Part shown: piece after piece, positions 1 through 12,318 of the stretch
How positions within the stretch are numbered: position 1 is the first letter of the stretch
How the letters are laid out: every line of letters starts with the position of its first letter
Virus record (IMG/VR): IMGVR_UViG_3300027734_000056
Span: 1-64,000 of that record
DNA length: 64,000 bases
Source of the DNA: a virus
Direction: 5' to 3' (one strand)
Made by a program: the position numbers and the translations under genes
The notes under the pieces: model-generated
The model's input: only the letters and a program-made list of their open reading frames with translations
Databases searched by the model: none
What the model was told of the DNA's origin: nothing

Positions 1-84
1 TCGGGGTCTCATTCCATGTACATCTTTGTAAAAATCCCAAATGGTTGATTGCATTTGTTGAATTGTAGTGTGTTCGTTAAACAT
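1..84 (-). CDS. Unknown phage protein, N-terminal fragment cut by window edge
   Basis: An ATG at 84 opens a frame that runs off the left edge. The 28 visible residues start MFNEHTTIQQ and end DFYKDVHGMRPR. The tract FYKDVHGxRPR is one I associate with the N-terminus of small uncharacterised phage proteins, so the start is probably correct. It overlaps the end of the 77-211 gene by 8 bases, which suggests translational coupling, and it is the distal member of the leftward early cluster. The function is not known and most of the protein lies outside the window. Confidence 0.6.
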   Translation of the reverse strand, partial: MFNEHTTIQQMQSTIWDFYKDVHGMRPR

Positions 85-211
85 TTTCATCCTCAGAAAA
101 GAATTGTTCTAATGCACCATTGTATTCCGCAATGGTAGCAAATGTCAAGCCATGACGATCACAAAATCTGTGAAAGCGGTTTAGTTGTGTTTGAGTGTAT
201 TGTGTTTTCAT
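77..211 (-). CDS. Small unknown phage protein (44 aa)
   Basis: A 44-residue frame starting MKTQYTQTQL at 211. I chose this ATG because the in-frame extension upstream runs through very AT-rich DNA and the promoter zone near 296-324. The protein is polar with aromatic residues (FHRFCDRHG near the middle) and an acidic tail ending DENV. No family is recognised. Its stop overlaps the start of the next leftward gene by 8 bases. Leftward transcription could begin from a weak sigma-70-like element (TTGCTG, 17 bases, TATAAT) at 324-296, inside the palindromic promoter zone. Small size and position suggest an early accessory peptide; that is inference. Confidence 0.5.
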   Translation of the reverse strand: MKTQYTQTQLNRFHRFCDRHGLTFATIAEYNGALEQFFSEDENV

Positions 212-280
212 GTTGTCTATTATAGCGAATTTTTTAATGTTGTCAACAAATATTTTAATAACATATTTTTTGTAGGGGTA

Positions 281-310
281 TTGACACGCCCCAATATTAT
301 ATGGTATAAT
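281..310 (+). promoter_or_regulatory. Sigma-70-like promoter reading rightward into a non-coding hairpin region
   Basis: TTGACA at 281-286 and TATAAT at 305-310 are separated by 18 bases, a near-consensus pair with GG before the -10. The predicted start near 317 lies directly before two large hairpins (328-369 and 371-389) and no plus-strand gene follows, because the genes at 392-973 are on the other strand. The same DNA is palindromic around the -10 (ATTATATGGTATAAT), so it could also serve leftward transcription of the 211 gene. Confidence 0.55.
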
Positions 311-327
311 ATTGGCGCCAGCAAAAG

Positions 328-369
328 TAATACTTTTGTTTGCAGAATATTCTGAAAACAAAAGTATTA
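328..369. repeat. Convergent pair of 18-bp TAATACTTTTGTTTKCAG repeats (left pair)
   Basis: The plus-strand copy at 328-345 reads TAATACTTTTGTTTGCAG. The inverted copy at 352-369 reads TAATACTTTTGTTTTCAG on the minus strand. The spacer is 6 bases, so the pair folds into a nearly perfect hairpin of about 18 base pairs. The same element occurs three more times at 1106-1186, beyond the two minus-strand genes. It could be an operator, an origin element or a recombination site; the sequence alone does not decide. Confidence 0.85.
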
Positions 370-370
370 C

Positions 371-389
371 AAAGGGGCTTTGCCCCTTT
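371..389. terminator. GC-rich hairpin after the HTH gene, possible bidirectional terminator
   Basis: AAAGGGGC (371-378) pairs with GCCCCTTT (382-389) around a 3-base loop. It lies directly downstream of the minus-strand HTH gene stop at 392. The T tract is short and broken on both strands, so it may be a weak terminator. It would also end any transcript from the rightward promoter at 281-310. Confidence 0.5.
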
Positions 390-391
390 GC

Positions 392-718
392 TTAAACTGG
401 CTTGCTGTTAGCAAGCGCAGAGAAGATTTTGGTCAAAGCCGTTTTGTTAGCTTTGGTCAGGCTTTCGACCTCGGCTTCAGTCAGCGACAGAACCGCACCG
501 ATAGCATCAGCGACAGAATCTTTTTTAACAACAGGCTCGCCCGTTTTTGTTTTGTATTCTTTAGCCACATAAACTTTCTCACGAGAAAGTTTAGCAACAA
601 CAGAACGAACAGTCTTGCCCAAGTTGAGAGCAATTTGTTCAACAGTTACACCAGATTGGTAGTCAGCAACCATTTTAGTGGTTTGCTCGGGAGTGTAGTT
701 CAAAGTCTTTGCAGTCAT
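392..718 (-). CDS. Helix-turn-helix DNA-binding protein, sigma region 4-like (108 aa)
   Basis: The start at 718 (MTAKTLNYTPEQ) is chosen because AAGGAA sits about 7 bases before it; an alternative ATG is two codons upstream. Residues about 8-45 (YTPEQTTKMV then VEQIALNLGKTVRSVVAKL) look like a helix-turn-helix in which TVRSVVAKL is the recognition helix. A basic stretch KEYKTKTGEP and an acidic helical tail follow. Similar small proteins are widespread in tailed phages of aquatic bacteria and are usually left unnamed. It has its own strong promoter at 753-781. It is a candidate to bind the repeats that frame this cassette; that link is inference. Confidence 0.65.
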   Translation of the reverse strand: MTAKTLNYTPEQTTKMVADYQSGVTVEQIALNLGKTVRSVVAKLSREKVYVAKEYKTKTGEPVVKKDSVADAIGAVLSLTEAEVESLTKANKTALTKIFSALANSKPV

Positions 719-752
719 TTTCATTTCCTTTACAGTTTGCGTTAAAAAATTA

Positions 753-781
753 ATTATAATCCAAAATTCAAAACCTTGCAA
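753..781 (-). promoter_or_regulatory. Promoter of the HTH gene
   Basis: On the minus strand TTGCAA (781-776) and TATAAT (758-753) are 17 bases apart, about 35 bases before the ATG at 718. The sequence after the -35 (GGTTT, then GAATT) matches the promoter at 994-1022, so the two look like duplicates. Confidence 0.75.
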
Positions 782-790
782 GTGCTAGGG

Positions 791-973
791 TTATTCAGCG
801 ATCAAGTAAGAATAGCCAAGCAAGCCAACAGCAAAGGCAACAAAGCCAATAGTCATCAGCATGACAACGTCTTGAAATTTGCTATGTGGTAGCATATTGT
901 CAACAGAGCCAACAACGCCAAGCATCATCAGTAAACTAATCAAAATCATCACAATGCCCAAATCGTTTCGCAT
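791..973 (-). CDS. Small membrane protein with two transmembrane helices (60 aa)
   Basis: The frame starts MRNDLGIVMI at 973 with AAAGGAAATAAA directly before it. Residues about 6-24 (IVMILISLLMMLGVVGSV) and 36-57 (VVMLMTIGFVAFAVGLLGYSYL) are hydrophobic helices joined by a short polar loop around LPHSKFQD, predicting a hairpin in the inner membrane. No family is recognised. It has its own promoter at 994-1022 and is followed within about 10 bases by the promoter of the HTH gene. It could be an early membrane modulator or a superinfection-exclusion peptide, but nothing in the sequence proves either. Confidence 0.6.
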   Translation of the reverse strand: MRNDLGIVMILISLLMMLGVVGSVDNMLPHSKFQDVVMLMTIGFVAFAVGLLGYSYLIAE

Positions 974-993
974 TTTATTTCCTTTAAAATTAA

Positions 994-1022
994 ATTATAA
1001 CTGAGAATTCTAAACCTTGCAA
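994..1022 (-). promoter_or_regulatory. Promoter of the small membrane protein
   Basis: On the minus strand TTGCAA (1022-1017), a 17-base spacer and TATAAT (999-994) lie about 20 bases before the ATG at 973. It is a near copy of the promoter at 753-781. Confidence 0.75.
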
Positions 1023-1040
1023 GACTTATTTTTTGTAAGG
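1015..1040. promoter_or_regulatory. Imperfect inverted repeat over the -35, candidate operator
   Basis: CCTTGCAA (1015-1022) and TTGTAAGG (1033-1040) are inverted halves matching at 7 of 8 positions. The left half overlaps the -35 of the leftward promoter. A dimeric regulator bound here would block that promoter. No second copy was found at the 753-781 promoter, so the support is structural only. Confidence 0.3.
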
Positions 1041-1105
1041 TTATTAATGTACTACTTGTGTATTCAAAAAATTCAAGAAATAAAAGTATTACTAGTATTA
1101 CTGCT

Positions 1106-1186
1106 CTGCAAACAAAAGTATTACAACTACTGGACTAATACTTTTGTTTGCGGGGGCGGTTATTGGACTAATACTTTTGTTTTCAG
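1106..1186. repeat. Three further 18-bp TAATACTTTTGTTTKCRG repeats (right group)
   Basis: The minus-strand copy at 1123-1106 is identical to the copy at 328-345. Plus-strand copies lie at 1136-1153 (one difference) and 1169-1186 (identical to the copy at 369-352). The last two are each preceded by TGGAC. The first two are divergent and form a perfect 16-bp inverted repeat over 1108-1151. The 318-base gap 974-1291 has no gene; it holds the leftward promoter, this repeat group and the rightward terminase promoter. Confidence 0.85.
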
Positions 1187-1255
1187 CCTGTGGCACACAC
1201 GCACGCGGTATTTTTAAAATTTCAACCCATGCATTTAGGTGCTAAAATTTAACTA

Positions 1256-1285
1256 TTGACCCACAGCTTGCCCAAATGTTATAAT
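1256..1285 (+). promoter_or_regulatory. Promoter of the packaging and head operon, near-leaderless
   Basis: TTGACC (1256-1261) and TATAAT (1280-1285) are 18 bases apart. The terminase small-subunit ATG at 1292 begins only 6 bases after the -10, so transcription should start on or next to the start codon. The 16 bases ending at the -35 (AAATTTAACTATTGAC) recur before the tape measure gene at about 12.24 kb. Confidence 0.8.
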
Positions 1286-1291
1286 CCACAC

Positions 1292-1789
1292 ATGACCAAA
1301 AACCTACCCACCCACACGCCTGCCGAGGCATTAGCAATCAGCCCAGAAAATTTGGAAATTGCCAACTGTTATTTACAGCTGCAAAGCTCAGACGCAGTTG
1401 CTGATGAACTAGACATACCCAAAAGCTTAGTCACACAAACGCTAGCACGCAGAGAAGTCAAACAGTACATTGACTCAGTATTCTTTGACGTAGGTTACAA
1501 CAACCGTTTTCAAATGCGCCGTGCCATGGATGCACTAATCAAACGCAAGTTTCAAGAGCTGGAGGAGGCCGAAACAGGCAGCTCAAAAGACATAGCTGAA
1601 CTGTTAATGATGAGCCACAAAATGACTATGGAATTACTAGACAAGCAAATTGAACTGGAAAAACTACAAGCCAGCTCAATAAAAAATCAAGTTAATGTGC
1701 AAATTAACGAAGTTGGTGACGGCACACGTTATGGACAACTTATAAAACAACTGGTAATGCCAGAAAGTCAAAATGCTAACAATAAGTAG
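1292..1789 (+). CDS. Terminase small subunit (165 aa)
   Basis: This is the DNA-recognition subunit of the packaging motor, called from its size, helical content, HTH and position before the large subunit. The start MTKNLPTHTP at 1292 is the first ATG; an in-frame TTG at 1256 would fall within the promoter -35 and is rejected. Residues about 30-60 (CYLQLQSSDAVADELDIPKS) look like an N-terminal helix-turn-helix. A long charged helix (MRRAMDALIKRKFQELEEAE and after) would oligomerise. Its end overlaps the terL start by 17 bases. There is no Shine-Dalgarno sequence because the transcript appears to start at the ATG. Confidence 0.75.
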   Translation: MTKNLPTHTPAEALAISPENLEIANCYLQLQSSDAVADELDIPKSLVTQTLARREVKQYIDSVFFDVGYNNRFQMRRAMDALIKRKFQELEEAETGSSKDIAELLMMSHKMTMELLDKQIELEKLQASSIKNQVNVQINEVGDGTRYGQLIKQLVMPESQNANNK

Positions 1790-3092
1790 ACCAGACATAT
1801 CAGCTGCAGCTATCACTGAGTATCCAGCTGACACACGTTTTATAAAACTGCCTATCACCAACTACTTAAAACTGCTGCCAGCAGTAGATCCTGTAACTGG
1901 TGCCTCAACCACAGCTTGGGATCAAATTAATCGTGCGCAAATAGCACTAATCAACGCAGTTAACTGTCCCAGTTACAGATTCGTCTGCGCAGCACTAGCA
2001 CGCAGATTAGGCAAAACTTACGTGGCCAATGTAATTGGACAGCTGGTTATGTTGGTGCCTGGCTGCAATATTTTAATTATATCGCCTAACTATACACTGA
2101 GCAGCATTAGTTTTGAACTGCAACGCAGACTGATACGCAGCTTCGATCTAGAAGTTGAACGCGACAACGTAAAGGATAAAGTTCTAGAACTTGCCAATGG
2201 TTCTACTATCAGATTGGGCTCGCTGAGCACTGTGGATAGTTGCGTTGGTCGCAGTTATGATTTGATTATTTTTGATGAGGCAGCACTAGGCGATGGTGAG
2301 GCAGCGTTTAACGTAGCCTTACGCCCTACCTTGGATAAGCCTGGAAGCAAAGCAATTTTTATTTCAACACCACGCGGCAAAAACAACTGGTTTAGTAGAT
2401 TTTTTGATCGTGGGTTTTCGGATGCATTCCCAGAGTGGTGTAGCTTAACGGCTGACTATACAGAAAATCCACGCATGTCGGCAGCTGATGTGGCTGAGGC
2501 CAAATCAGTAATGAGTCATAGTGAATTTGCACAAGAATACATGGCTTCGTTTAGTACCTTTGAAGGTCAAATATTTAGTTTTGACAGAACCGCACAAGTT
2601 GCCGAATACGTACGCGAAGACCAAGACGAAATCTTTGCAGGACTGGACCCAGGTTACAAAGATCCCACAGCTTTTGTGGTGTTAGCCTACCGACCCAGTA
2701 CAGAACACTACTATGTCGTAGATGAGTATCAGGATGCACAAGCTACTACTCTGCAACACGTTGAACGAATATCAGAACTGATCACACGTTGGTCAATTGA
2801 CAGCATATTTATTGACTCAGCTGCCGCACAAATGGCAGCTGACTTAGCATATACCTACGACATAGCCACTATAAAAGCCAAAAAAGATGTGCTGCCTGGC
2901 ATTGCTGCAGTGCAAACACTAGCCGATCAAAATCGTATTACCGTAGCACCACACTGCACACATACCTTATACATGTTTGACCAGTATCGCTGGGATAGTC
3001 GTGAAACTGTTAAACGTGAACGTCCTGAGCACGGCTTGGCATCGCACATGGCAGATGCTTTACGCTACGCGGTTTATACTTATACCATTTAG
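1773..3092 (+). CDS. terL: Terminase large subunit, ATPase-nuclease (439 aa)
   Basis: This is the packaging motor that translocates and cuts concatemeric DNA at the portal. The adenine-binding and Walker A region is ARRLGKTYVAN at residues about 75-86, the variant form used in T4 gp17-like terminases. Walker B is DLIIFDEAAL at about 163-172, and the coupling motif ISTPRGKNNW is at about 196-206. The RNase H-fold nuclease carries GLDPGYKDPTAFVVL, IFIDSAAAQMAADL and a C-terminal HMADALRYAVY, supplying the acidic metal ligands. The length is normal for the family. It overlaps the small subunit and is followed by an HNH gene with its own promoter. Confidence 0.95.
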   Translation: MLTISRPDISAAAITEYPADTRFIKLPITNYLKLLPAVDPVTGASTTAWDQINRAQIALINAVNCPSYRFVCAALARRLGKTYVANVIGQLVMLVPGCNILIISPNYTLSSISFELQRRLIRSFDLEVERDNVKDKVLELANGSTIRLGSLSTVDSCVGRSYDLIIFDEAALGDGEAAFNVALRPTLDKPGSKAIFISTPRGKNNWFSRFFDRGFSDAFPEWCSLTADYTENPRMSAADVAEAKSVMSHSEFAQEYMASFSTFEGQIFSFDRTAQVAEYVREDQDEIFAGLDPGYKDPTAFVVLAYRPSTEHYYVVDEYQDAQATTLQHVERISELITRWSIDSIFIDSAAAQMAADLAYTYDIATIKAKKDVLPGIAAVQTLADQNRITVAPHCTHTLYMFDQYRWDSRETVKRERPEHGLASHMADALRYAVYTYTI

Positions 3093-3137
3093 TGCTGGCA
3101 CGAACGCTTTTTTATTAAAGCGAAAAAAATTTACTAC

Positions 3138-3166
3138 TTGACAATTTTGTGTATTGGTGGTACAAT
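3138..3166 (+). promoter_or_regulatory. Promoter upstream of the HNH-portal-capsid genes
   Basis: TTGACA (3138-3143), 17 bases, TACAAT (3161-3166). It lies in the 103-base gap after terL, with an A-rich tract before the -35 like the other rightward promoters. The predicted start is about 23 bases before the HNH ATG at 3196. Confidence 0.7.
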
Positions 3167-3195
3167 ACTACATAAGAAAACTGCATATATAAAAA

Positions 3196-3615
3196 ATGGC
3201 TAAAAATACTTCAATGGCTCGTATTCCTGTTAAGTGGGTCAGAGATAAAGCAAAAGCTGCTTATGAAAAAGCTGACACCTGCTGGATATGTGGCACCACA
3301 CAGGACCTAGAACTACATCACTTTCACTCAGTTACCCTGCTGCTTAATAGTTGGGCCGTGAAAAAAGGTTATGATATCAGCACTGATAGTGGCATTTTAG
3401 CAGTACGTGATGAATTTATTGCCGAACACCACGATGAACTATACAACCAAGTGCGTACACTTTGCAATAAACACCATGTAAAACTGCATGCAACTTTTGG
3501 CAAAGCGCCAGCTGCTGGCAGCGAAGCTCGTCAGGCACGTTGGTGTGATCGTCAGCAAGCTAAAGCTCAGGGTCTAGAAACCACCACAAGCTCATTTTTT
3601 AGCGAATTTACATAA
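3196..3615 (+). CDS. HNH endonuclease (139 aa)
   Basis: A beta-beta-alpha metal nuclease. The zinc knuckle pair is CWIC (residues about 29-32) and LCNKHH near residue 95. The catalytic part is LELHHFH at about 40-46, and the closing KHHVKLH supplies the remaining histidine. HNH proteins encoded next to terminase genes are known to aid terminase cutting in several siphoviruses, and the position between terL and portal fits that role. The alternative is a free-standing homing endonuclease. The N-terminus is basic (KWVRDKAKAA). The ATG at 3196 lacks a clear Shine-Dalgarno sequence (an A-rich leader is present), unlike the portal gene 9 bases downstream. Confidence 0.85.
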   Translation: MAKNTSMARIPVKWVRDKAKAAYEKADTCWICGTTQDLELHHFHSVTLLLNSWAVKKGYDISTDSGILAVRDEFIAEHHDELYNQVRTLCNKHHVKLHATFGKAPAAGSEARQARWCDRQQAKAQGLETTTSSFFSEFT

Positions 3616-3624
3616 GGAATAAAA

Positions 3625-4812
3625 ATGGCTTGGTATGATCGCGTTACTAGTTGGATACAAAAGCTAAATCCAGCCCAAGAAATAATTTATCGTCAAGAAG
3701 GCATCAGAGTTGGTAGTGATGCACCTGCCAACTACAGACAAAGTTTTAAACGCTTAGAAACAGTAAACCGCGGCACTAACTTAATTGTTAGCGGTTGCAG
3801 CAGTTTAGATTTTGATGTTAAAAACAAAGTATTAACTGACGTTAACAGTGGCATGCGTCAAAAAACATTGGTTAACTTACTAAACTACAGACCCAATCCG
3901 TACCAAAGCGTACAAGATTTTCGCGCTAACTGTTTTACAGACTTTATCTTAGAAGGTAATATATTTATCTACTTTGATGGGGTTTACTTATACCACTTGC
4001 CTGCGGCAATGGTACAAATAAATCCCGATGAAAAAACTTTTATTAAAAGCTATACCTACAACAACATGCAAGAATATCGCCCTGAGGAGATTATTCATGT
4101 AAAAGACGTCTGCAGCACCAGCATTTATCGCGGCACCAGCAGATTGGTAAGCGCAAACAGATCAATTGAAATTATGTATAAAATGCATAGTTTCCAAGAA
4201 CAGTTTTTTGATAATGGTGCAGTACCTGGAATGGTATTGACCACAGAAAATACACTCAGTCAAATAGCAAAACAAAAAACAATTCAAAACTGGTCAGCCA
4301 ACTACAGCCCAAAAAATGGTGCTCGCAAGCCTATGATTTTGGACAGCGGCTTAAAACCCAGCAATGTTTTAAACACAAGCTTTCAAGAAATGGATTTTGA
4401 TAACTCAATCAAAACTCATGACGTAAAAATTTTAAAAGCCCTAGGTGTACCAAGCATATTACTAGACGGCGGAAATAATGCAAATATTTCTCCAAATATG
4501 CGATTGTTTTACCTAGAAACCATTATGCCCATAGTTCGTAAATATATTTCTGCAATGGAAAGATATTTCGGATATGATATAGATGCTATTACTTCAAACG
4601 TATCAGCCTTGCAACCTGAGCTTAAAGATATAGCTGCTTATAATGTTAGTTTAGTTAATGGCGGTATTATTACTGCCAATGAAGCTAGAACAGAATTAAG
4701 ATACAACGCTATTAATGGGAATGATACACTGCGAATACCAGCTAATATAGCAGGTTCAGCAGTAGATCCAAGCTTAGGTGGTGCGCCACCCAAGGATTCT
4801 CAGCCAAGTTAA
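3625..4812 (+). CDS. Portal protein, HK97 type (395 aa)
   Basis: Forms the dodecameric ring at the capsid vertex through which DNA is packaged. AAGGAATAAAA precedes the ATG. The N-terminal clip and wing region runs to about residue 150, with NLLNYRPNPYQSVQDFR a typical portal tract. The core includes FDNGAVPGMVLTTE, and KILKALGVPSILLDGGNNAN near residue 275 is a very typical portal segment before the crown. The C-terminus is helical and ends in a Pro- and Gly-rich tail (PSLGGAPPKDSQPS). Length and order (terL, HNH, portal, protease-capsid) are normal for the HK97 lineage. Confidence 0.92.
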   Translation: MAWYDRVTSWIQKLNPAQEIIYRQEGIRVGSDAPANYRQSFKRLETVNRGTNLIVSGCSSLDFDVKNKVLTDVNSGMRQKTLVNLLNYRPNPYQSVQDFRANCFTDFILEGNIFIYFDGVYLYHLPAAMVQINPDEKTFIKSYTYNNMQEYRPEEIIHVKDVCSTSIYRGTSRLVSANRSIEIMYKMHSFQEQFFDNGAVPGMVLTTENTLSQIAKQKTIQNWSANYSPKNGARKPMILDSGLKPSNVLNTSFQEMDFDNSIKTHDVKILKALGVPSILLDGGNNANISPNMRLFYLETIMPIVRKYISAMERYFGYDIDAITSNVSALQPELKDIAAYNVSLVNGGIITANEARTELRYNAINGNDTLRIPANIAGSAVDPSLGGAPPKDSQPS

Positions 4813-4827
4813 AGCATACAAAGGAGT

Positions 4828-6837
4828 ATGATGAATAAAAACAAAGTATTATATGTAAATAGTACTTTTGCTAAACAAATAACCCCAGAGTCAACAGACG
4901 GTATACAAAGTGTTTATATTGAAGGCTACGCAAGTACCACAGATATAGACAGAATGAACGATGTTATACCTAGTGCAGTTTGGGAAAAAGGCATATCCAA
5001 CTACTTAAAAAATCCTATTATATTATCGCAACATGACCATGATGATCCTATTGGCAGAATGGTTGATTATAGAATAGATTCAAAAGGTTTGTGGGTTAAA
5101 GCCAGAATCTCAGCCGCAGCTGATGAGGTTTATGGTTTAGTAAAAGATGGTGTAGTAACCGCATTTAGTGTTGGATTCAGGGTCATAGACGCTGCATACG
5201 ATGCTGCAACAGAGCTGTTTGTAATCAAGGAACTTGAACTAGTAGAAATATCAGTTGTATCAATTCCTGCCAACCAGAATACTCTATTTAGTTTGTCTAA
5301 AGCATTTTCAGATGCTGATGAGTACAAAAAGTTTAAGTCCCAATTTATAACGGCAGATGACTCAGCTAAAAAGCTCGAAAATTTGCCTCCTGTAAATTTA
5401 AAATCATATAAGGAAGTCGAAATGACAGAAGATCAAATCAAACAAATGGTAGCAGACGCTGCCGCTGCTGCAGCCCTAGAAACAACTAAGGCTCTAGAAG
5501 CAAAACAAAAAGCTGAAGCTGATGCAGCTGAACTAGATGCTCGTTTAAAAGCCATCGAAATTCAAACTGCTGAATCAGGTGCAGAACGTCTAATGGCTGA
5601 AATCGAAAAGCGTTTCGCTGATCAAGCAGCCTCAACAAAAAGCATGCTAGATGGCCTACAAGGTGCTATCTCTGAAAAAGCTGCTGAAATTGAAGCTATC
5701 CAAAAGTCAAAAATGACTTTTGTTGACGGTAAACAAGGTGGACCTTCTTACAAAGAAAAAGAAAATGCAGTTTTACTTGCTAACATTTCTCGTAAAGGTT
5801 TAGCAGATACAAAATACGCACAAGATCTAATCCAAAAATACGGTCAACACTTGCCAAGCGCTACTTGGGAACTAGAAGTTAGCCTAAACATGGAAGAAGA
5901 AGTTCGTCGTAAGCTGATTGTTGCTCCACTATTCCGTACAATTGACATGAAAACTAATGTCATGACAATTCCTTTGAATCCAGATGCAGGTTTGGCTTCT
6001 TGGGTACAAAACAGTGACTTTGGTGGTACAAATTCAGTTGGTAGTACTACAGCTACTACAACTGGTACAGTTGGTGCTGGTACTCCACACGCATTAAAAG
6101 AAATTACTCTAAATGCATACAAAGTAGCTACAAGAGAGTACTTATTCTACGAAGAAGAAGAAGATTCTTTAATCGTTTTACTACCTTTCATTCGTGATGC
6201 TATGGTTCGTCGTATTGCTCGCGCACTTGATCGTGCATATATACAAGGTGTAGGCAGCGGTAGTGATCCAGTTAAAGGTCTAACTCGTTACGCCAGTGTC
6301 AACACAGTTACAAGTACTTCAGTAGTAACTGCAGCGGTTGGTACAGCGGTTACAGTTGCTAAACTACGTGCTATGCGCGCTGGTTTAGGTGTTCTAGGTC
6401 TAGATCCAGCAGAAGTTACATTCGTTGTTAACTCAGCTGTTTACTACGATCTATTGGAAGATACAGTATTCCAAACAATGAACCAAGTTGGTCCACAAGC
6501 TACATTGTTAACTGGTCAAATTGGTCAGATCGGTAACTCACCAGTTCTAGTAAGTGGTGAACTACCAGAAAAACCAACTGCAGGTAAAGCAGGTACAACT
6601 GCTGGTACTGGATCTTCAGCGACTACTACATGGGAGTATACAAAAGATGATGTTGTTGGTGCTTTAGCTATTTATACACCAAACTTTGTTGTCGGCAATC
6701 AACGTGGTCTACGTATGGATACACAAGAGTTGGTAGAAACACAACGTCGTGTGATGGTTGCTAGTATGCGTAGTGGCTTCCAGCAAATGTCTAGTGCCTA
6801 CGGCCCAGGTGTTGTAAGCTTACGTTACGCAAGCTAA
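4828..6837 (+). CDS. Fused prohead protease and major capsid protein (669 aa)
   Basis: One uninterrupted frame joins two proteins usually encoded separately. Residues about 15-165 are an HK97 (U35-type) prohead serine protease: the GYASTTDIDRMNDVI opening, the catalytic His in SQHDHDDPIGR (about residue 70), the catalytic Ser in VTAFSVGFRV (about 115), and SVVSIPANQNT. Residues about 199-300 are a charged, Ala/Glu/Lys-rich helical delta or scaffold segment. Residues about 310-669 are an HK97-fold capsid subunit (TWELEVSLNMEEEVRRKLIV; VRRIARALDRAYIQG). Two tandem ATGs (4828, 4831) follow AAGGAG. An in-frame internal start with its own ribosome site lies at 5422, where arginine codon choice also changes. 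Cleavage between the delta domain and shell is expected but not shown. Confidence 0.92.
   Translation: MMNKNKVLYVNSTFAKQITPESTDGIQSVYIEGYASTTDIDRMNDVIPSAVWEKGISNYLKNPIILSQHDHDDPIGRMVDYRIDSKGLWVKARISAAADEVYGLVKDGVVTAFSVGFRVIDAAYDAATELFVIKELELVEISVVSIPANQNTLFSLSKAFSDADEYKKFKSQFITADDSAKKLENLPPVNLKSYKEVEMTEDQIKQMVADAAAAAALETTKALEAKQKAEADAAELDARLKAIEIQTAESGAERLMAEIEKRFADQAASTKSMLDGLQGAISEKAAEIEAIQKSKMTFVDGKQGGPSYKEKENAVLLANISRKGLADTKYAQDLIQKYGQHLPSATWELEVSLNMEEEVRRKLIVAPLFRTIDMKTNVMTIPLNPDAGLASWVQNSDFGGTNSVGSTTATTTGTVGAGTPHALKEITLNAYKVATREYLFYEEEEDSLIVLLPFIRDAMVRRIARALDRAYIQGVGSGSDPVKGLTRYASVNTVTSTSVVTAAVGTAVTVAKLRAMRAGLGVLGLDPAEVTFVVNSAVYYDLLEDTVFQTMNQVGPQATLLTGQIGQIGNSPVLVSGELPEKPTAGKAGTTAGTGSSATTTWEYTKDDVVGALAIYTPNFVVGNQRGLRMDTQELVETQRRVMVASMRSGFQQMSSAYGPGVVSLRYAS
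5411..5424 (+). promoter_or_regulatory. In-frame internal ribosome-binding site and start within the protease-capsid fusion
   Basis: AGGAAG at 5411-5416 is followed after 5 bases by ATG at 5422-5424, codon 199 of the fusion and in the same frame. Initiation here would give a 471-residue delta-plus-capsid protein without the protease. All five arginines upstream use AGA or AGG; nearly all downstream use CGT or CGC. Confidence 0.65.
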
Positions 6838-6843
6838 TCAAGT

Positions 6844-6899
6844 TGGGGGCTTTTTGCCCCCATCTTTTGTATGTGCGGCGTGCTGCACATACAAAAGAT
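6844..6899 (+). terminator. Tandem hairpins after the capsid gene, attenuator or RNA-processing element
   Basis: The first hairpin is TGGGGGC (6844-6850), loop TTTTT, GCCCCCA (6856-6862). The second has a perfect 15-bp stem: 6862-6876 pairs with 6885-6899 around the 8-base loop GGCGTGCT. Neither is followed by a clean T run, so full termination is unlikely. Stabilising the abundant capsid mRNA or reducing read-through to the connector genes is more plausible. Confidence 0.6.
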
Positions 6900-6912
6900 T
6901 ACAGGAGTATTT

Positions 6913-7569
6913 ATGGGATTACCATTAGTTACAAGAGCTGAGTATAAAGCTTATGCTGGTATCACAAGTACTACTAGTGATACCAAATTAGACAGTTTGA
7001 TTCTACAAACCAGCGAACTGGTAAAGTCAATATGCCGCAGAACTTTTGTAGACTGGGTTGACGACACCAAAGTAGAAATTCAAGAAGGTGGCGGTCCACT
7101 AATCATTCTACAAGAGTCGCCAGTTATTAATATCAACAGTGTGGAGCTTAGCACAGACTACGGCAAAACCTACACCACACTTGTAGAATACACAAATTAC
7201 GTGCTAGATTTAAAAACAGGTGCACTACGTCCCATACAAATGACGCAGTATCCACTGGAAGTTTACGGCAGTGCGCCTTATGGTACTATTAATTATGGTT
7301 TTACACCTTACGGCACTACCATAAACCCAATATTTCCAAAAGCCATAAACGGCTATCGTATCAGTTACACTGCAGGTTACGAAGAACTACCTGCAGACTT
7401 AAAGTTAGCAGTATTTGATTTAGTCACTTACTATCAACGCAATGACGGTGCTGTGCATTCTAATAGCGCACCAACTGGCAGTGGTATACAAATTCAGTAT
7501 ATAACAGACACCAGTTTACCTGCACATATTCGCCGCGTGTTAGATTTGTATACTACGAGTTATGATTAA
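6913..7569 (+). CDS. Head-tail connector (adaptor) protein, gp6/gp8-like (218 aa)
   Basis: The start at 6913 (MGLPLVTRAEYKAY) follows AGGAG; an upstream in-frame start would lie inside the hairpin and is rejected. The N-terminal helices (TRAEYKAYAGITSTTSDTKL, then LILQTSELVKSICRRTFVDW) are the usual opening of connectors that dock under the portal. A beta-rich middle (SPVININSVELS) and a C-terminal segment containing YTAGYEELPADLKLAVFDLV complete the family pattern. It is the first gene after the capsid, as in HK97-like phages. It starts a run of four head-tail joining genes. Confidence 0.8.
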   Translation: MGLPLVTRAEYKAYAGITSTTSDTKLDSLILQTSELVKSICRRTFVDWVDDTKVEIQEGGGPLIILQESPVININSVELSTDYGKTYTTLVEYTNYVLDLKTGALRPIQMTQYPLEVYGSAPYGTINYGFTPYGTTINPIFPKAINGYRISYTAGYEELPADLKLAVFDLVTYYQRNDGAVHSNSAPTGSGIQIQYITDTSLPAHIRRVLDLYTTSYD

Positions 7570-7571
7570 TT

Positions 7572-9065
7572 ATGGCAGTCCAACAGTTTACAGCTGCATT
7601 ACAGTCACAAGTTTATAAAAACTGGTTGGCACAGTCTGGTAAAAATGTTATTAATAATACTGTTAAAGAGCTGCGAGCAAGTCAACAGACTAGTCCTAAG
7701 ACTAGTTTTTACTTAACAAAAAGCACTGTTAAAGATTTATTTAAAACCATAGCTAATATAAATTTACCAGACGGTCAAGCACAAGAGTTTTTAAACTTAA
7801 TGCTAACAGGCAGTGCAGATGGATTAGTAGGGCCAGAAGGTTTAGCTAAAGGTGAAAAATTTACTAAAGTTGCAGGCGAAGACGCTATATTTTTTCAAAA
7901 TATTGGTTTTGATACAATAACTGTTAGATTAAATCAAGTTATGCAGCAATACCCCAAACTTCAGGCAGCAATGGAGTTGGCAGAAGAAAATTACTATGCT
8001 GCTGAAGTAGCGGCATTAAATAAGCAAACTGATTTAACTCCCGCAGAAAAACGCGACAGGCTAACCAAAATAGAACAAGCGGCTGCAGAAAAGGCTAGTT
8101 TAGGTTACTACTTTAATAAAGGTCACGTAATAGGTGTTGCAACAAATGTAACAAAACAGTTTAGAGATAAACTGGCAAAAACTGATCAAATAGCAAAAGA
8201 TCAACGAGATATACTAATCAATGTGTTAGATTTATACATTGATAAAATGGTACAAGATGACTTAGCTAGTGCTAACTTACCTAGTGCCGTAACACAAGAA
8301 TTATATGCTAGTTATATTAAATCTAGTGATAAGTACTTGGTAGAACTACAGCACGTTGCCACTAATCAAGGTGCCACAGCTGCTGCTAGTAGAAGTATAA
8401 CACTTGAGCTTAGTAAAATATTTGGTATAGATGCAAAAGACTTACTTAAAACAGTAACAAGCTCACCAACAATTGCTGCAACTTTGCTAGAAACCGAAGG
8501 TTCTCCTAGTTTTAAACATCTTCTTGCAAAACAACTTGCTGACACAATGGCAGGCAGGCCAAAAGATAAAACTGTTTATAACATAAAACCAACACTTGTA
8601 GGTAAGAAAACTACCAAGATCACAAAGCCAAAAAGCCATAAGCAAGATATACAAAAGCTTAAAAAATTAAAGCAAGATCTAGAAAAAGCCAAGCCAGATC
8701 CTGGCAGGATAAAAGTTGTAGTAGATGTACCAGAGTCGTTAAACTTAGTAAACCTACAAAACTTAATAAACAGCGAGCTACAACAAACTATAGCAAAAAA
8801 CATGGGTACTGGTAGTAGCCGTAATGTACTAAACTATCGTACTGGTCGCTTTGCTGGTTCGGCTAAAGTAGAAAATATAAGCAAAAGTCGTCAAGGCATG
8901 CTAACAGCTTTTTATAGCTACATGAAATATCCCTATCAAACTTTTGAACCTGGGTTTCGTCAAGGCACACCAGAGTCTAGAAGCCCCAAGCTGTTGATAA
9001 GTAAATCAATCCGTGAAATTGCAGCAGCTCAAGTAACAAGTCAATTAAGGGCCGTAAGCGTATGA
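7572..9065 (+). CDS. Large virion protein of the head-tail joining region (497 aa)
   Basis: Not a named family. The N-terminal 300 residues are mostly helical with Gln-, Lys- and Ala-rich stretches; residues about 340-385 are strongly basic (KKTTKITKPKSHKQDIQKLK). The last 80 residues (NVLNYRTGRFAGSAKV, YMKYPYQTFEPGFRQG and SPKLLISKSIREIA) resemble a C-terminal module I know from unnamed virion proteins encoded between connector and tail terminator genes. The gene is 2 bases after the connector and overlaps the next gene by an ATGA junction. It may be a head-closure or neck protein with an added helical domain; position is the main support. Confidence 0.5.
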   Translation: MAVQQFTAALQSQVYKNWLAQSGKNVINNTVKELRASQQTSPKTSFYLTKSTVKDLFKTIANINLPDGQAQEFLNLMLTGSADGLVGPEGLAKGEKFTKVAGEDAIFFQNIGFDTITVRLNQVMQQYPKLQAAMELAEENYYAAEVAALNKQTDLTPAEKRDRLTKIEQAAAEKASLGYYFNKGHVIGVATNVTKQFRDKLAKTDQIAKDQRDILINVLDLYIDKMVQDDLASANLPSAVTQELYASYIKSSDKYLVELQHVATNQGATAAASRSITLELSKIFGIDAKDLLKTVTSSPTIAATLLETEGSPSFKHLLAKQLADTMAGRPKDKTVYNIKPTLVGKKTTKITKPKSHKQDIQKLKKLKQDLEKAKPDPGRIKVVVDVPESLNLVNLQNLINSELQQTIAKNMGTGSSRNVLNYRTGRFAGSAKVENISKSRQGMLTAFYSYMKYPYQTFEPGFRQGTPESRSPKLLISKSIREIAAAQVTSQLRAVSV

Positions 9066-9499
9066 GTCGTAGAACCTCAATAGTTAAAGCATTAGTAGAT
9101 AAAATTAATCTAATTAATGGTCAACAGCCTTACCAAATTAACTTATTTTCCAATGCTCATGCCAAGTTAAAATTTTGGGATGAAATAAATCAGTTTCCTG
9201 CTGTGTACGTAACTCCAGGAAGCGAAACACGTGAATATCTTCCTGGTAACTTAACTTGGTGCTATTTAGGTGCCAGTGTAAAAATTTACTGCAAAGGTGA
9301 AACAAGTAAAGATGATTTAGAAAATTTACTTGAAGATATTGAAAAAGTAATCAACAGTAACCGTGTATTAACTTATGATACAGATTTCGGTTATCAAACA
9401 ACAGAAATCTTAGTGATTTCAGTAACAACTGACGAAGGGCTATTAATGCCTTACAGCGTTGGTGAAATAAATTTACAAATTCGCTACCAGTTAGTGTAA
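9062..9499 (+). CDS. Tail terminator / tail completion-like protein (145 aa)
   Basis: The ATGA overlap with the previous gene fixes the start at 9062. The protein is a compact alpha/beta chain: an N-terminal helix (TSIVKALVDKINLING), FPAVYVTPGSETREYLPG, CYLGASVKIYCKGE, helix DDLENLLEDIEKVIN and C-terminal strands (EINLQIRYQLV). This order matches the small tail terminator and completion proteins (gpU/DUF3168-type) that cap the tail tube. Its place directly before the tail tube gene supports the role. Sequence similarity to a particular family is not decisive by eye. Confidence 0.6.
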   Translation: MSRRTSIVKALVDKINLINGQQPYQINLFSNAHAKLKFWDEINQFPAVYVTPGSETREYLPGNLTWCYLGASVKIYCKGETSKDDLENLLEDIEKVINSNRVLTYDTDFGYQTTEILVISVTTDEGLLMPYSVGEINLQIRYQLV

Positions 9500-9570
9500 C
9501 TATACCAAAGTACTCAAGCAGATAAATGTCTAGCAAAAATACTGTGGTATTTTAAAACAAAGGAAATAAA

Positions 9571-11328
9571 ATGGCATTAAATTTAGCACGTAATAGTAGA
9601 GTATTCTTTACTACAAACGTAAACTCAGCAGGTACAATTCAGACAACTGGTTTTAGTCCTGCAAATACCTATGAACTACAAGTTTTGGACGGTTTTACGT
9701 TTTCACAAAACACAACACAAGATACTGTAACACTTTCTGAAGCTGGCGTTAACCCAGTACGTGGTCAGCGAAGCTTTAACACAGCACTAAGCCCAGCTGA
9801 TTTCAGCATGAGCACTTATATTCGCCCATTTAAGGCAGCCAGTTCAATTACTGCCGAAGAGTCAGTATTGTGGAACGCCTTACTAGGTGCACCAGCACTT
9901 TACTCCGAGCTTACTGCAACAGGCACGAATACAGTTGTTAGTGTAACTTCAGTAACCGCAGGTCAAATTACATTCGGTACAGCAGTTAGTTTGGCTGCGG
10001 GTACAGCAATTACTTTCCCGCCAGCATATCCTACACTAGCTGCGAGTGGTGGCGGCTTTCAGCCAAATACAACTTACTATGTTACCACAGCTACTACTAA
10101 TTCAGCTGTTGCAATTCTTAGTGCTACACTGGGCGGAGCTGCATTCACCACTACAACAGCCACTGTTAGTGGAGCACCAGTAGTAGTTGTTTCTTCGGTA
10201 AAAAATAACGTTGTATCAGTTCCAAATACAGCAAGTACACCAACTTATGCACCAACAACTGGAGTAATATCAATTGCAACAAGTGCCACTACAACTAACT
10301 TATCCGTTGGCGACATTGTTGTAATTGGTGGATTAACAGCAAGTACGGATAGTGATACAAAAACTATAAACGCTGCAGCAAAAGTACTTACTAACGATTC
10401 TAGTAGCTTGACCTTAACACTAATCAGTCCAAAATCACCAACCGCGGCAGGTAGTACTATTACTATTAGTGCTCTTACTGTAGTAAATAGCGTTAAACTA
10501 TATAAGTCTGCATGGGCCCCAGTAAAATCAGACATTAGCTATGCTTCAGTAGGTGCCAGTGATTTAAATCAATTGCAAACTTTTGGTATGCTTTTTGCTG
10601 TCGATAATGTGCTTTATACACTAGACAACTGCGCTATGACTCAGGTTAGTATTGATTTTGGTTTGGACGGTATTGCAACAGCCGCTTGGAGTGGTCAAGG
10701 TACTAAGCTAAATGAAAGCTCAATTTCAATTGCTACTCTTGCTGCAGCAGCTACAGCTAAAAACGTTTCAGCACCTTTTATTACCAATAAACTAAGCACT
10801 GTTGACCTAGAACTAGAGAAAGCACTGGGCAGTGTTGCAGCAGGTAGAAAGTATACACTAGCACTAACTGGTGGTAATATTACAATTAATAATAATATTA
10901 ATTATATTACTCCAGCCAACTTAGCTACCGTTAACATTGCTAATACGTACTATACAGGCACACGTGCTATTAGTGGTACACTAAATGCTTACCTAAAAAC
11001 AGGTAATGCTGCTAGTAGCGAAAACACAGGCGAATTGCTAAGAGATATGTTGGCAGCAATTACTTCTAGTAGTCTGTCTAGTACTGCTATTGAGCCAATG
11101 TTCAGCTTAGTACTATCAATTGGTGGTAAGTCAGCAACTGCTCCAGCACGAGTTGAGTTAGAAATGCAGTCTGTTGTTTTAAGTGTTCCAACAGTAGACG
11201 TTCAGCAAGTTATTTCAACAGCTATTAACTTCACTGCTCAAGGATATAAACCAGGCGCTACAGCAGCAGATAATACTTTTGCAGTTGACGTACCAAGTGA
11301 CTTAGCAATTCGTTACTTCGCAACTTAA
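9571..11328 (+). CDS. Major tail tube protein with large inserted domain (585 aa)
   Basis: Probably the hexameric subunit of the tail tube. AAAGGAAATAAA precedes the ATG. The N-terminal 100 residues (SRVFFTTNVNSAG, LQVLDGFTFSQNTTQDTVTL, FSMSTYIRPF) and C-terminal 250 residues (FGLDGIATAAWSGQGTKLNE; PTVDVQQVISTAINFTAQGY) look like the two parts of a tail tube fold. Residues about 115-310 are a Ser/Thr/Ala/Val-rich beta insertion (TTYYVTTATTNSAVAILSA, LSVGDIVVIGGLTAS) that probably projects from the tail surface. At 585 residues it is about twice the size of the simplest tube proteins, which the insertion explains. It is followed by a hairpin terminator and the chaperone genes, the usual order. 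Confidence 0.75.
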   Translation: MALNLARNSRVFFTTNVNSAGTIQTTGFSPANTYELQVLDGFTFSQNTTQDTVTLSEAGVNPVRGQRSFNTALSPADFSMSTYIRPFKAASSITAEESVLWNALLGAPALYSELTATGTNTVVSVTSVTAGQITFGTAVSLAAGTAITFPPAYPTLAASGGGFQPNTTYYVTTATTNSAVAILSATLGGAAFTTTTATVSGAPVVVVSSVKNNVVSVPNTASTPTYAPTTGVISIATSATTTNLSVGDIVVIGGLTASTDSDTKTINAAAKVLTNDSSSLTLTLISPKSPTAAGSTITISALTVVNSVKLYKSAWAPVKSDISYASVGASDLNQLQTFGMLFAVDNVLYTLDNCAMTQVSIDFGLDGIATAAWSGQGTKLNESSISIATLAAAATAKNVSAPFITNKLSTVDLELEKALGSVAAGRKYTLALTGGNITINNNINYITPANLATVNIANTYYTGTRAISGTLNAYLKTGNAASSENTGELLRDMLAAITSSSLSSTAIEPMFSLVLSIGGKSATAPARVELEMQSVVLSVPTVDVQQVISTAINFTAQGYKPGATAADNTFAVDVPSDLAIRYFAT

Positions 11329-11339
11329 TTTTTTTTTAC

Positions 11340-11371
11340 GGCACTGGATTGATCACCAGTGCTACTTTTTC
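11340..11371 (+). terminator. Hairpin terminator after the tail tube gene
   Basis: GCACTGG (11341-11347) pairs with CCAGTGC (11356-11362), followed by a T run near 11366-11370. It probably reduces transcription from the abundant tube gene into the chaperone and tape measure genes. Confidence 0.6.
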
Positions 11372-11405
11372 TCTCCTATTATAACAATCAAAGGACAATT
11401 CCCTC

Positions 11406-11831
11406 ATGACAAACGCAGCAGTAAACCTTAAATCGCTATTAGTTCCTTCTAAAAGTGTAGAAGTAGACTACCCAGGTTTAAATGGTTTTAAAGTTAATGT
11501 TGTTTTCCTAAGCCGTGAAACCTTAGTTGGTATTCGCAAAAAAGCTACAAAAACTACCTTTAAAAATCGTCAACCAGTTGAAGAACTTGACGAAAAGTTA
11601 TTTTTACAACTTTATGTAAATGCTTGTATTAAAGGTTGGTCAGGTCTAAAGCTTCGCTATCTAGAAGAACTAGCACCAGTAGATTTAACTGGTCAAGATC
11701 CAGAAGCAGAACTAGCTTACTCACAAGACGATGCACTATTCTTGATGCAAGCCAGTGCAAACTTTGATGCTTTTATCAGCGAAACAGTAACTGAGCTATC
11801 AAATTTCACGAAGACCAGTACAAGCAAGTAA
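11406..11831 (+). CDS. Tail assembly chaperone, gpG-like (141 aa)
   Basis: The ATG at 11406 follows AAAGGA at a 10-base spacing. The protein is acidic and helical: KVNVVFLSRETLVGIRKKA, EELDEKLFLQLYVNACIKGW and a C-terminal helix (DDALFLMQASANFDAFISET). These are features of G-type chaperones that bind the tape measure during tail assembly. The gene lies between tail tube and tape measure and overlaps a second frame in the -1 register. A slippery heptamer near its end (11801-11807) should let a minority of ribosomes read into that frame and make a longer G-T protein of about 264 residues. Confidence 0.8.
   Translation: MTNAAVNLKSLLVPSKSVEVDYPGLNGFKVNVVFLSRETLVGIRKKATKTTFKNRQPVEELDEKLFLQLYVNACIKGWSGLKLRYLEELAPVDLTGQDPEAELAYSQDDALFLMQASANFDAFISETVTELSNFTKTSTSK
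11801..11807 (+). promoter_or_regulatory. Programmed -1 ribosomal frameshift site (AAATTTC)
   Basis: In the frame of the first chaperone the codons are TCA AAT TTC, so the heptamer has the canonical X XXY YYZ phase. After a -1 shift the tRNAs re-pair on AAA TTT and translation continues CAC GAA GAC in the second frame, which is open from 11795 to the stop at 12199. The gene pair and its position match the conserved lambda G/GT arrangement. Confidence 0.8.
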
Positions 11832-12199
11832 ATCACCAACTTGCCAGCTACTTTCAAAATATGCAAGTTAATGTAACCAAAGACTCATATTTTGAAATAT
11901 GCGAAGCACTAGGCACAGAGCCAGTAGAAGAAGAAATTCCAGTTGACTTTGAAGATTTACACGTGGATGTTCAGGAAGCTTTAGGTATATACTATAAACT
12001 TAAAGATGAGTGGGATACTATGAATGGTAATTATATGGGCAAAAGCTATGCTGGACTGCTTGATATATTTACCATACTAGAAGTACCGGTCCAAGATCAC
12101 CAAACACTGTTTAACTTAATAGGTATTATTGATCATCACAGATCAAAAGCCATAGCAGACAGTAAGCCAGACTCCAGCAGCAAATCAGCCTCTGTATGA
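11807..12199 (+). CDS. Tail assembly chaperone T-like extension, made by -1 frameshift
   Basis: The frame continues the first chaperone after slippage at 11801-11807, giving HEDQYKQVNHQLASYFQNM and then the region from ATG 11861 (MQVNVTKDSYFEICEALG). The internal ATG has no Shine-Dalgarno sequence, so independent translation (112 aa) is unlikely. The T-like part is acidic (PVEEEIPVDFEDLHVDVQEALG) with a Tyr/Trp-containing helical segment (YYKLKDEWDTMNGNYMG). T domains recruit tail tube subunits to the tape measure in lambda. The stop lies inside the terminator hairpin at 12188-12217. Confidence 0.75.
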   Translation, partial: HEDQYKQVNHQLASYFQNMQVNVTKDSYFEICEALGTEPVEEEIPVDFEDLHVDVQEALGIYYKLKDEWDTMNGNYMGKSYAGLLDIFTILEVPVQDHQTLFNLIGIIDHHRSKAIADSKPDSSSKSASV

Positions 12200-12217
12200 A
12201 AATACAGGGGCTTTTTT
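12188..12217 (+). terminator. Rho-independent terminator after the tail chaperones
   Basis: A 10-bp stem (12188-12197 with 12202-12211, one G-T pair), tetraloop GAAA and six T residues (12212-12217). The chaperone stop codon overlaps the stem. Confidence 0.85.
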
Positions 12218-12238
12218 GTACCTGAAAAAATTTAACTA

Positions 12239-12267
12239 TTGACAAAATCGCACCAAAATGATATAAT
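12239..12267 (+). promoter_or_regulatory. Promoter of the tape measure gene
   Basis: TTGACA (12239-12244), 17 bases, TATAAT (12262-12267), shortly after the chaperone terminator. The 16 bases ending in the -35 core (AAATTTAACTATTGAC) are identical to those at the terminase promoter. The leader to the ATG at 12319 is about 45 bases. Confidence 0.85.
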
Positions 12268-12318
12268 TAGGGTTACTACGAGTACCATATTTTGGTAAAA
12301 TGCTTAACTGGAGATGTT

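Follow-up and report, generated by a model that had tools for sequence, protein, structure and literature searches.

In PeSL cassettes, the promoter serves the next co-directional gene. According to a citing paper (PMC4503421), such cassettes of T4-like phages pair an early promoter with a stem-loop and recur in the intergenic spaces of a variable gene block. They are the nearest known kind of system to the locus described here. Work in E. coli (PMC4731013) describes how expression of a gene drops when a promoter points at its 3′ end, through collision and antisense RNA. For phage T5, a third account (PMC7472727) states that host polymerase transcribes all gene classes and calls the mechanism of class switching unknown.

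The stretch of DNA analyzed here (the window) covers the opening 64 kb of a 74,060-bp IMG/VR record of a T5-like phage, and its TerL shares up to 48% identity with that of Vibrio T5-like phages. As in the PeSL cassettes, the units compared here repeat a promoter and a stem-loop between the genes of a variable region. Unlike PeSL promoters, as their direction is generally understood, 183 of 200 units here face an opposing ORF and 7 are co-directional (none within 400 nt in 7, edge in 3), a count that left out ORFs overlapping the cassette by >20 nt and is therefore biased toward intergenic readings; the cassette also differs in its dyad over the −10 and its phased pairs of a short word. Compared with the E. 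coli convergent promoters, those seen here are natural, multi-copy, and often carry a terminator ahead of the stop codon that they face, which perhaps points to insulation rather than repression. No description of a head-on, dyad-bearing promoter cassette was found among the listed titles and abstract openings of a literature collection with few subscription papers. The cassette, with its phased word pairs, is recurrent and seems to represent a new way of controlling or insulating transcription.

The original prediction described five copies of an 18-bp repeat (hereafter the word) framing a helix-turn-helix (HTH) gene and a small membrane gene. Its coordinates and strands for all five copies were correct, as were the identities of copies 1 and 3 and of copies 2 and 5, while copy 4 is not the T-variant it was taken for, being a third variant (...TTTGCGG). 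Allowing ≤3 mismatches, the repeat matched five times in 64 kb (0.39 expected; maximum of 3 in 100 shuffles), and a search through the 74,060-bp record at ≤2 mismatches returned the five known copies and no others. The left pair forms a 22-bp inverted repeat with arms 95% complementary. Three features had been overlooked (Table 1): a sigma70 consensus promoter at 281–310 aimed into the left pair, a conserved site upstream of terS that adjoins the right repeat group, and a degenerate word pair at 26-bp spacing, which rests on position and spacing given that its scores lie within the chance range of the window. The framing of the two genes stands as a matter of position, but is misleading as a functional statement.

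Table 1. Features of the cassette, the right repeat group and the adjoining genes, in window coordinates.
Feature	Position	Strand	Basis
Consensus sigma70 promoter: −35 TTGACA 281–286, extended −10 TG 302–303, −10 TATAAT 305–310, conserved GGCGC 314–318	281–318	+	Pattern match, 1 mismatch
Dyad H1 over −10 region, 11-bp arms, 3-bp centre	291–315		Inverted repeat I13; arms covary in relatives
Word 1 (copy 1, frame shifted one base)	327–344	−	24.0 bits
Word 2 (copy 2), 26 bp from word 1	353–370	+	24.1 bits
GC-rich hairpin AAAGGGGC-TTT-GCCCCTTT, between word pair and HTH stop codon	371–389		Sequence, fold
D5-like HTH protein (P0001)	392–718	−	phrog_323, E 1.4e-6
Leftward promoter of HTH gene (TTGCAA-17-TATAAT)	753–781	−	Sequence by eye; repeat D2
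60-aa protein, probably membrane	791–973	−	Translation
Leftward promoter of 60-aa gene (TTGCAA-17-TATAAT)	994–1022	−	Sequence by eye; repeat D2
Degenerate word	1049–1066	−	12.4 bits, weak
Degenerate word, 26 bp from word 1049–1066	1075–1092	+	9.7 bits, weak
Word (copy 3)	1107–1124	+	24.0 bits
Word (copy 4), 28 bp from copy 3	1135–1152	−	20.0 bits
Conserved terminus element GGGGCGGTTATTGGACT	1153–1169	+	T5 homologue at nt 28–44
Word (copy 5), 33 bp from copy 4, overlaps terminus-element end	1168–1185	−	21.9 bits
Predicted physical end of terminal repeat, near 1195	1190–1200		Alignment with T5 genome end, inference
Terminase small subunit terS (P0005)	1292–1789	+	phrog_3802, E 7e-33
Terminase large subunit TerL (P0004)	1773–3092	+	phrog_2, E 5.8e-42

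The rightward promoter at the left pair combines TTGACA and TATAAT with an 18-bp spacer, within the 16–18 bp of sigma70 promoters, and is predicted to be very strong, with a transcript start near 317. The left word pair spans about +10 to +54 of this promoter; together, words 1 and 2 form a hairpin (327–370), and the RNA fold of 317–395 reaches −34.4 kcal/mol (z −6.5). The GC-rich hairpin that follows is a possible bidirectional terminator, although termination is uncertain given the lack of a long T run. Similar DNA in cultured phages was limited to a best match of E 0.01 over 22% of query 240–400 and, for query 1040–1290, a best E of 3 among the matches listed; the promoter pattern matched six stretches of unrelated taxa in a prokaryote genome collection, probably by chance.

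Relatives of this cassette were sought in viral contigs, where the promoter core was located at 77 distinct places in loci and a looser search gave 275 candidates, of which 200 units remained once candidates lacking TTGAC or scoring <7 for the hairpin were removed (a set of 249 units, used for hairpin scores, also required GGCGC at its end). The loci overlap, and duplicates were removed by sequence context. Across 230 distinct promoters, TTGACA was present in 198, TATAAT in 219, the 18-bp spacer in 213 and the extended −10 TG in 192, with the −10 dyad found in 182 and absent from 48. The arms of this dyad covary: pairs 6, 7 and 8 were Watson–Crick in all 41 distinct long-type arms (shuffled maxima 37, 39 and 31), with no excess in the outermost pairs 9 and 10 (25 and 23 of 41; shuffled maxima 25 and 28). 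Promoter, self-complementary −10 and hairpin, often a terminator, recur in the loci compared as one intergenic unit, and this anatomy is well supported. Horwitz and Loeb reportedly described a promoter regulated by cruciform extrusion; the cassette shares a self-complementary −10 region with that promoter, here natural, multi-copy and with covarying arms, and by analogy one might guess that cruciform extrusion controls it. Two loci without the 18-bp words, L208 (record G013) and L209 (record G014), held 12 and 9 pattern matches with hairpins mostly different from one another, so that the structure was kept and the sequence was not.

The hairpin ends a median of 38 nt from the convergent stop codon; the nearest upstream ORF was leftward in 162 of 177 cases, starting a median of 174 nt away, and a leftward promoter-like site lay in the upstream space in 88 of 191 (28 in shuffled sequence, 27 on the other strand). 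In the mapped loci, units sit between leftward operons, which encode HTH, HAD-like, exonuclease-like, metalloprotease-like and membrane proteins (ORFs from a simple in-house script; non-HTH labels by eye). Promoter matches occurred in 22 of 26 records, each on one strand only (three with a single match) and with at most 12 units per record, while four records had none; given that the records were picked for a related TerL, the repeat or the promoter, this fraction is not a prevalence. The cassette strand was that of TerL in the six records with comparable contig orientation, and terS ran in the cassette direction in all 12 mapped loci showing terS.

In the lineage of the window, the word has the consensus TGMAAAC-N4-GTATTMM, a partial self-dyad, and first words were perfect 7-bp dyads in 12 of 55; the 44-nt hairpin of window-type cassettes is composed of two words 26 bp apart. 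Near cassette promoters, 123 of 166 word pairs were 26 bp apart and 25 were 27 bp apart, a spacing partly built in given that the word matrix was made from words in cassettes. Less dependent on the origin of the matrix are the pairs away from promoters (n = 41, including 12 near the terminus element), where 26 bp (17 pairs) and 32 bp (8 pairs) were the commonest distances and several orientations occurred, and the genome-wide confinement of the word. Rather than being scattered and unlinked to these genes, 82 of 91 strong words in eight word-bearing records (most of each examined) lay in the cassette gene block, and six records of other lineages held 0 to 3 words each. The two words of a pair were often not complementary to each other (72 of 123 at 26 bp, under 14 of 18 positions), and where the first word was not a perfect self-dyad (n = 76), 48 of the 26-bp pairs were inverted, 22 direct and 6 otherwise oriented. 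The spacing, the non-complementary pairs and the confinement to one block fit protein-binding sites better than an RNA stem, and the partial dyad and regular helical spacing are as expected of operators. Operators are the best of the three options first offered (HTH-protein operators, the boundaries of a mobile cassette, or a piece of an origin), in the sense of phased binding sites in this lineage, though not with the HTH protein as their reader. Some cassettes carry a separate hairpin followed by a word pair, and other lineages have promoter and hairpin with these words absent, which means that a cassette can exist without them. At L091 12770–12873, the same words occur at 32-bp spacing with no cassette promoter beside them.

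The conserved site upstream of terS has a counterpart in T5, where GTGGCGGTTAGCAGACT at nt 28–44 and 111,559–111,575 aligns with the window element and has alignable flanks; it lies 27 bp from the left physical end and 27 bp inside the right terminal repeat. The element was found in 86 of 103 distinct terS-upstream sequences (3 when shuffled), at a median of 200 bp from terS, these being drawn from 144 loci with a terS match and enough upstream DNA, with approximate terS starts and some upstream stretches resembling the coding sequence of an inserted gene. Words of this lineage lay near it in 20 of the 86. It also occurs beside the 5′-deoxynucleotidase gene in Serratia phage Kamaji (2 mismatches) and in Vibrio phages 234P1 and 70E37.1 (1 mismatch); looser matches elsewhere in the Serratia and Vibrio stretches look like chance. 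Homology to the T5 end sequence thus sits near the terminase genes, as in a T5-type terminus. Since the right group adjoins an element whose T5 homologue is 27 bp from the end, it is probably located at the physical genome end. By alignment, the terminal repeat probably ends near 1195, which would make the leftward block terminal-repeat DNA and place copies 3 to 5 in the last 90 bp or so of it. The element also offers a sequence handle on the ends of uncultured T5-like genomes. A cassette of this form was absent from T5 1–13,000 and 105,000–114,000, the sole match lacking the −35 TTGAC, having three mismatches, and lying inside a gene in both terminal repeats. The inverted arms of the right group also occur in L008.

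Sequence comparison shows the cassette and its convergent placement, how the words are spaced and confined, and the T5-end homology, and the explanation that we favor for them, tentatively and at a little short of even confidence, is that the 26-bp-paired words bind a probably dimeric protein and that the head-on promoter cassette insulates or switches operons. The 18-bp repeat would be the putative site of this protein, with pairs 26 bp apart lying about 2.5 helical turns from one another. The consensus promoter, which meets the end of a leftward operon head-on, would make a short RNA with a 5′ hairpin, and polymerase held at, or firing from, this over-consensus promoter would, along with the hairpin and terminator, stop leftward polymerases. 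Stopping leftward transcription at the operon end would insulate each operon from the next. A pair of dimers bound just downstream of the start would set whether the promoter fires, and the right group would put the same protein on the last roughly 90–150 bp of the terminal repeat.

Counting against this explanation are the lineages whose cassettes lack the words and the limited share of units with terminator-like sites. The operator reading does not explain the 5′ hairpin that is common across lineages, and a somewhat unlikely alternative is that the cassette makes a short stable noncoding RNA of about 25–90 nt, with a 5′ hairpin and a terminator, and that the repeats are RNA stems acting in trans. 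Hairpins begin only a few nt from where the RNA is predicted to start, with a median score of 10 (4.5 in shuffled sequence) and a score ≥7 in 194 of 249 units, 7 being the shuffled 95th percentile. Terminator-like sites within ≤180 nt were found rightward in only 79 of 188 units and leftward in 74 of 188 (3 and 5 when shuffled), and the rightward ends cluster at 21–29 and 57–91 nt (60 of 79 listed), in keeping with RNAs of such length. Both the left hairpin and the right group fold well; the latter has a z of −8.5 on the + strand, and for 1078–1190 the + strand (−45.1 kcal/mol) is ahead of the − strand (−28.6 kcal/mol), an advantage that favors RNA. By eye, spacer changes in some units also keep a hairpin. 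Against this, wobble pairs were not in excess, either in 149 distinct hairpins (G–T 4 and A–C 9 of 1,936 pairs, from a stem finder that scored Watson–Crick pairs only, a bias that should touch both alike) or in the 55-member word-pair family (G–T 37 and A–C 40 of 990), and no Rfam 15 family reached its gathering score in window 1–1800 (best 25.7 bits against 80). The wobble counts and the non-complementary 26-bp pairs disfavor an RNA stem as the sole explanation of the words. On the + strand, 1078–1182 folds as one long nested hairpin relying on G–U pairs.

Recombination of the PeSL kind, in which the promoter and stem-loop sequences mainly provide the homology by which small genes are exchanged among phages, may operate in addition to protein-bound, insulating cassettes, though as the explanation it seems very unlikely. 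The units do separate a variable gene set, and gene order differs between loci (e.g., an E-F pair on either side of C-D), but the shuffling was judged by eye in 25 loci, and the head-on orientation, −10 dyad and 26-bp phasing would be left unexplained.

As for the protein that would bind the words, the original prediction proposed operators for the neighboring HTH protein, a reading that we consider highly improbable. D5-like HTH genes do occur several times per block, and in this lineage beside words. However, 208 of 289 D5-like HTH segments (overlapping loci counted more than once) fit GK[ST]VRS[VI]VAKLSRE, and this presumed recognition helix, assigned from sequence, is near-constant across lineages where the words differ, the hairpins are unrelated or words are absent, making P0001 an unlikely reader. 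A comparison of gene profiles between seven word-bearing and six other records revealed no DNA-binding protein, by eye, among the best 30 families, and a host protein is a possible binder. That the repeats bound a mobile cassette or belong to a replication origin, as inverted and direct repeats flanking two genes and a right group at the predicted genome terminus could suggest, is scarcely credible: no recombinase gene lies between them, word pairs recur at the ends of other operons, and the HTH gene keeps its place next to terS, being one of the final two leftward genes ahead of it in 10 of 12 mapped loci showing both, so that delimitation of a mobile cassette by the five repeats is not supported.

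Under the favored reading of protein-bound words and insulating cassettes, a multi-copy head-on cassette with its own putative operators, in what is probably the first-entering DNA, is a candidate for operon insulation or shut-off. We consider it quite unlikely that its role goes further, with an array of super-consensus, self-complementary promoters directed toward the genome end in first-entering terminal-repeat DNA, each opposed to an early operon and gated in the lineage of the window by a word-binding protein that also sits on the genome end, forming an early shut-off or DNA-entry pacing switch. If true, such a switch could explain the way in which T5-like phages silence their first genes.

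Several further observations concern the genes of this region. The 60-aa protein had no PHROG match and one sub-threshold Pfam match, and the window and a single contig (L008 = L118, 83% identity) were the only places with its gene, apart from a weak match in L091. The regions upstream of the HTH gene (737–782) and the 60-aa gene (978–1023) are 78% alike across 46 nt, and their sigma70-like promoters, read by eye, look like copies of one duplicated unit. In record G001, L214 12144–18063 contains IscU-, IscA- and LpxH-like phosphatase and other genes between terS and terL (by eye). Left of the leftward block, L210 1251–3420 spans ~2.2 kb in which few ORFs are convincing; it may correspond to the T5 injection stop region. 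Finally, TATAAT lies 6–7 nt ahead of the ATG of terS (1280–1294, +) and of a 44-aa leftward gene (211–222, −), which suggests leaderless mRNAs for both, and several leftward genes of relatives show the same short distance.
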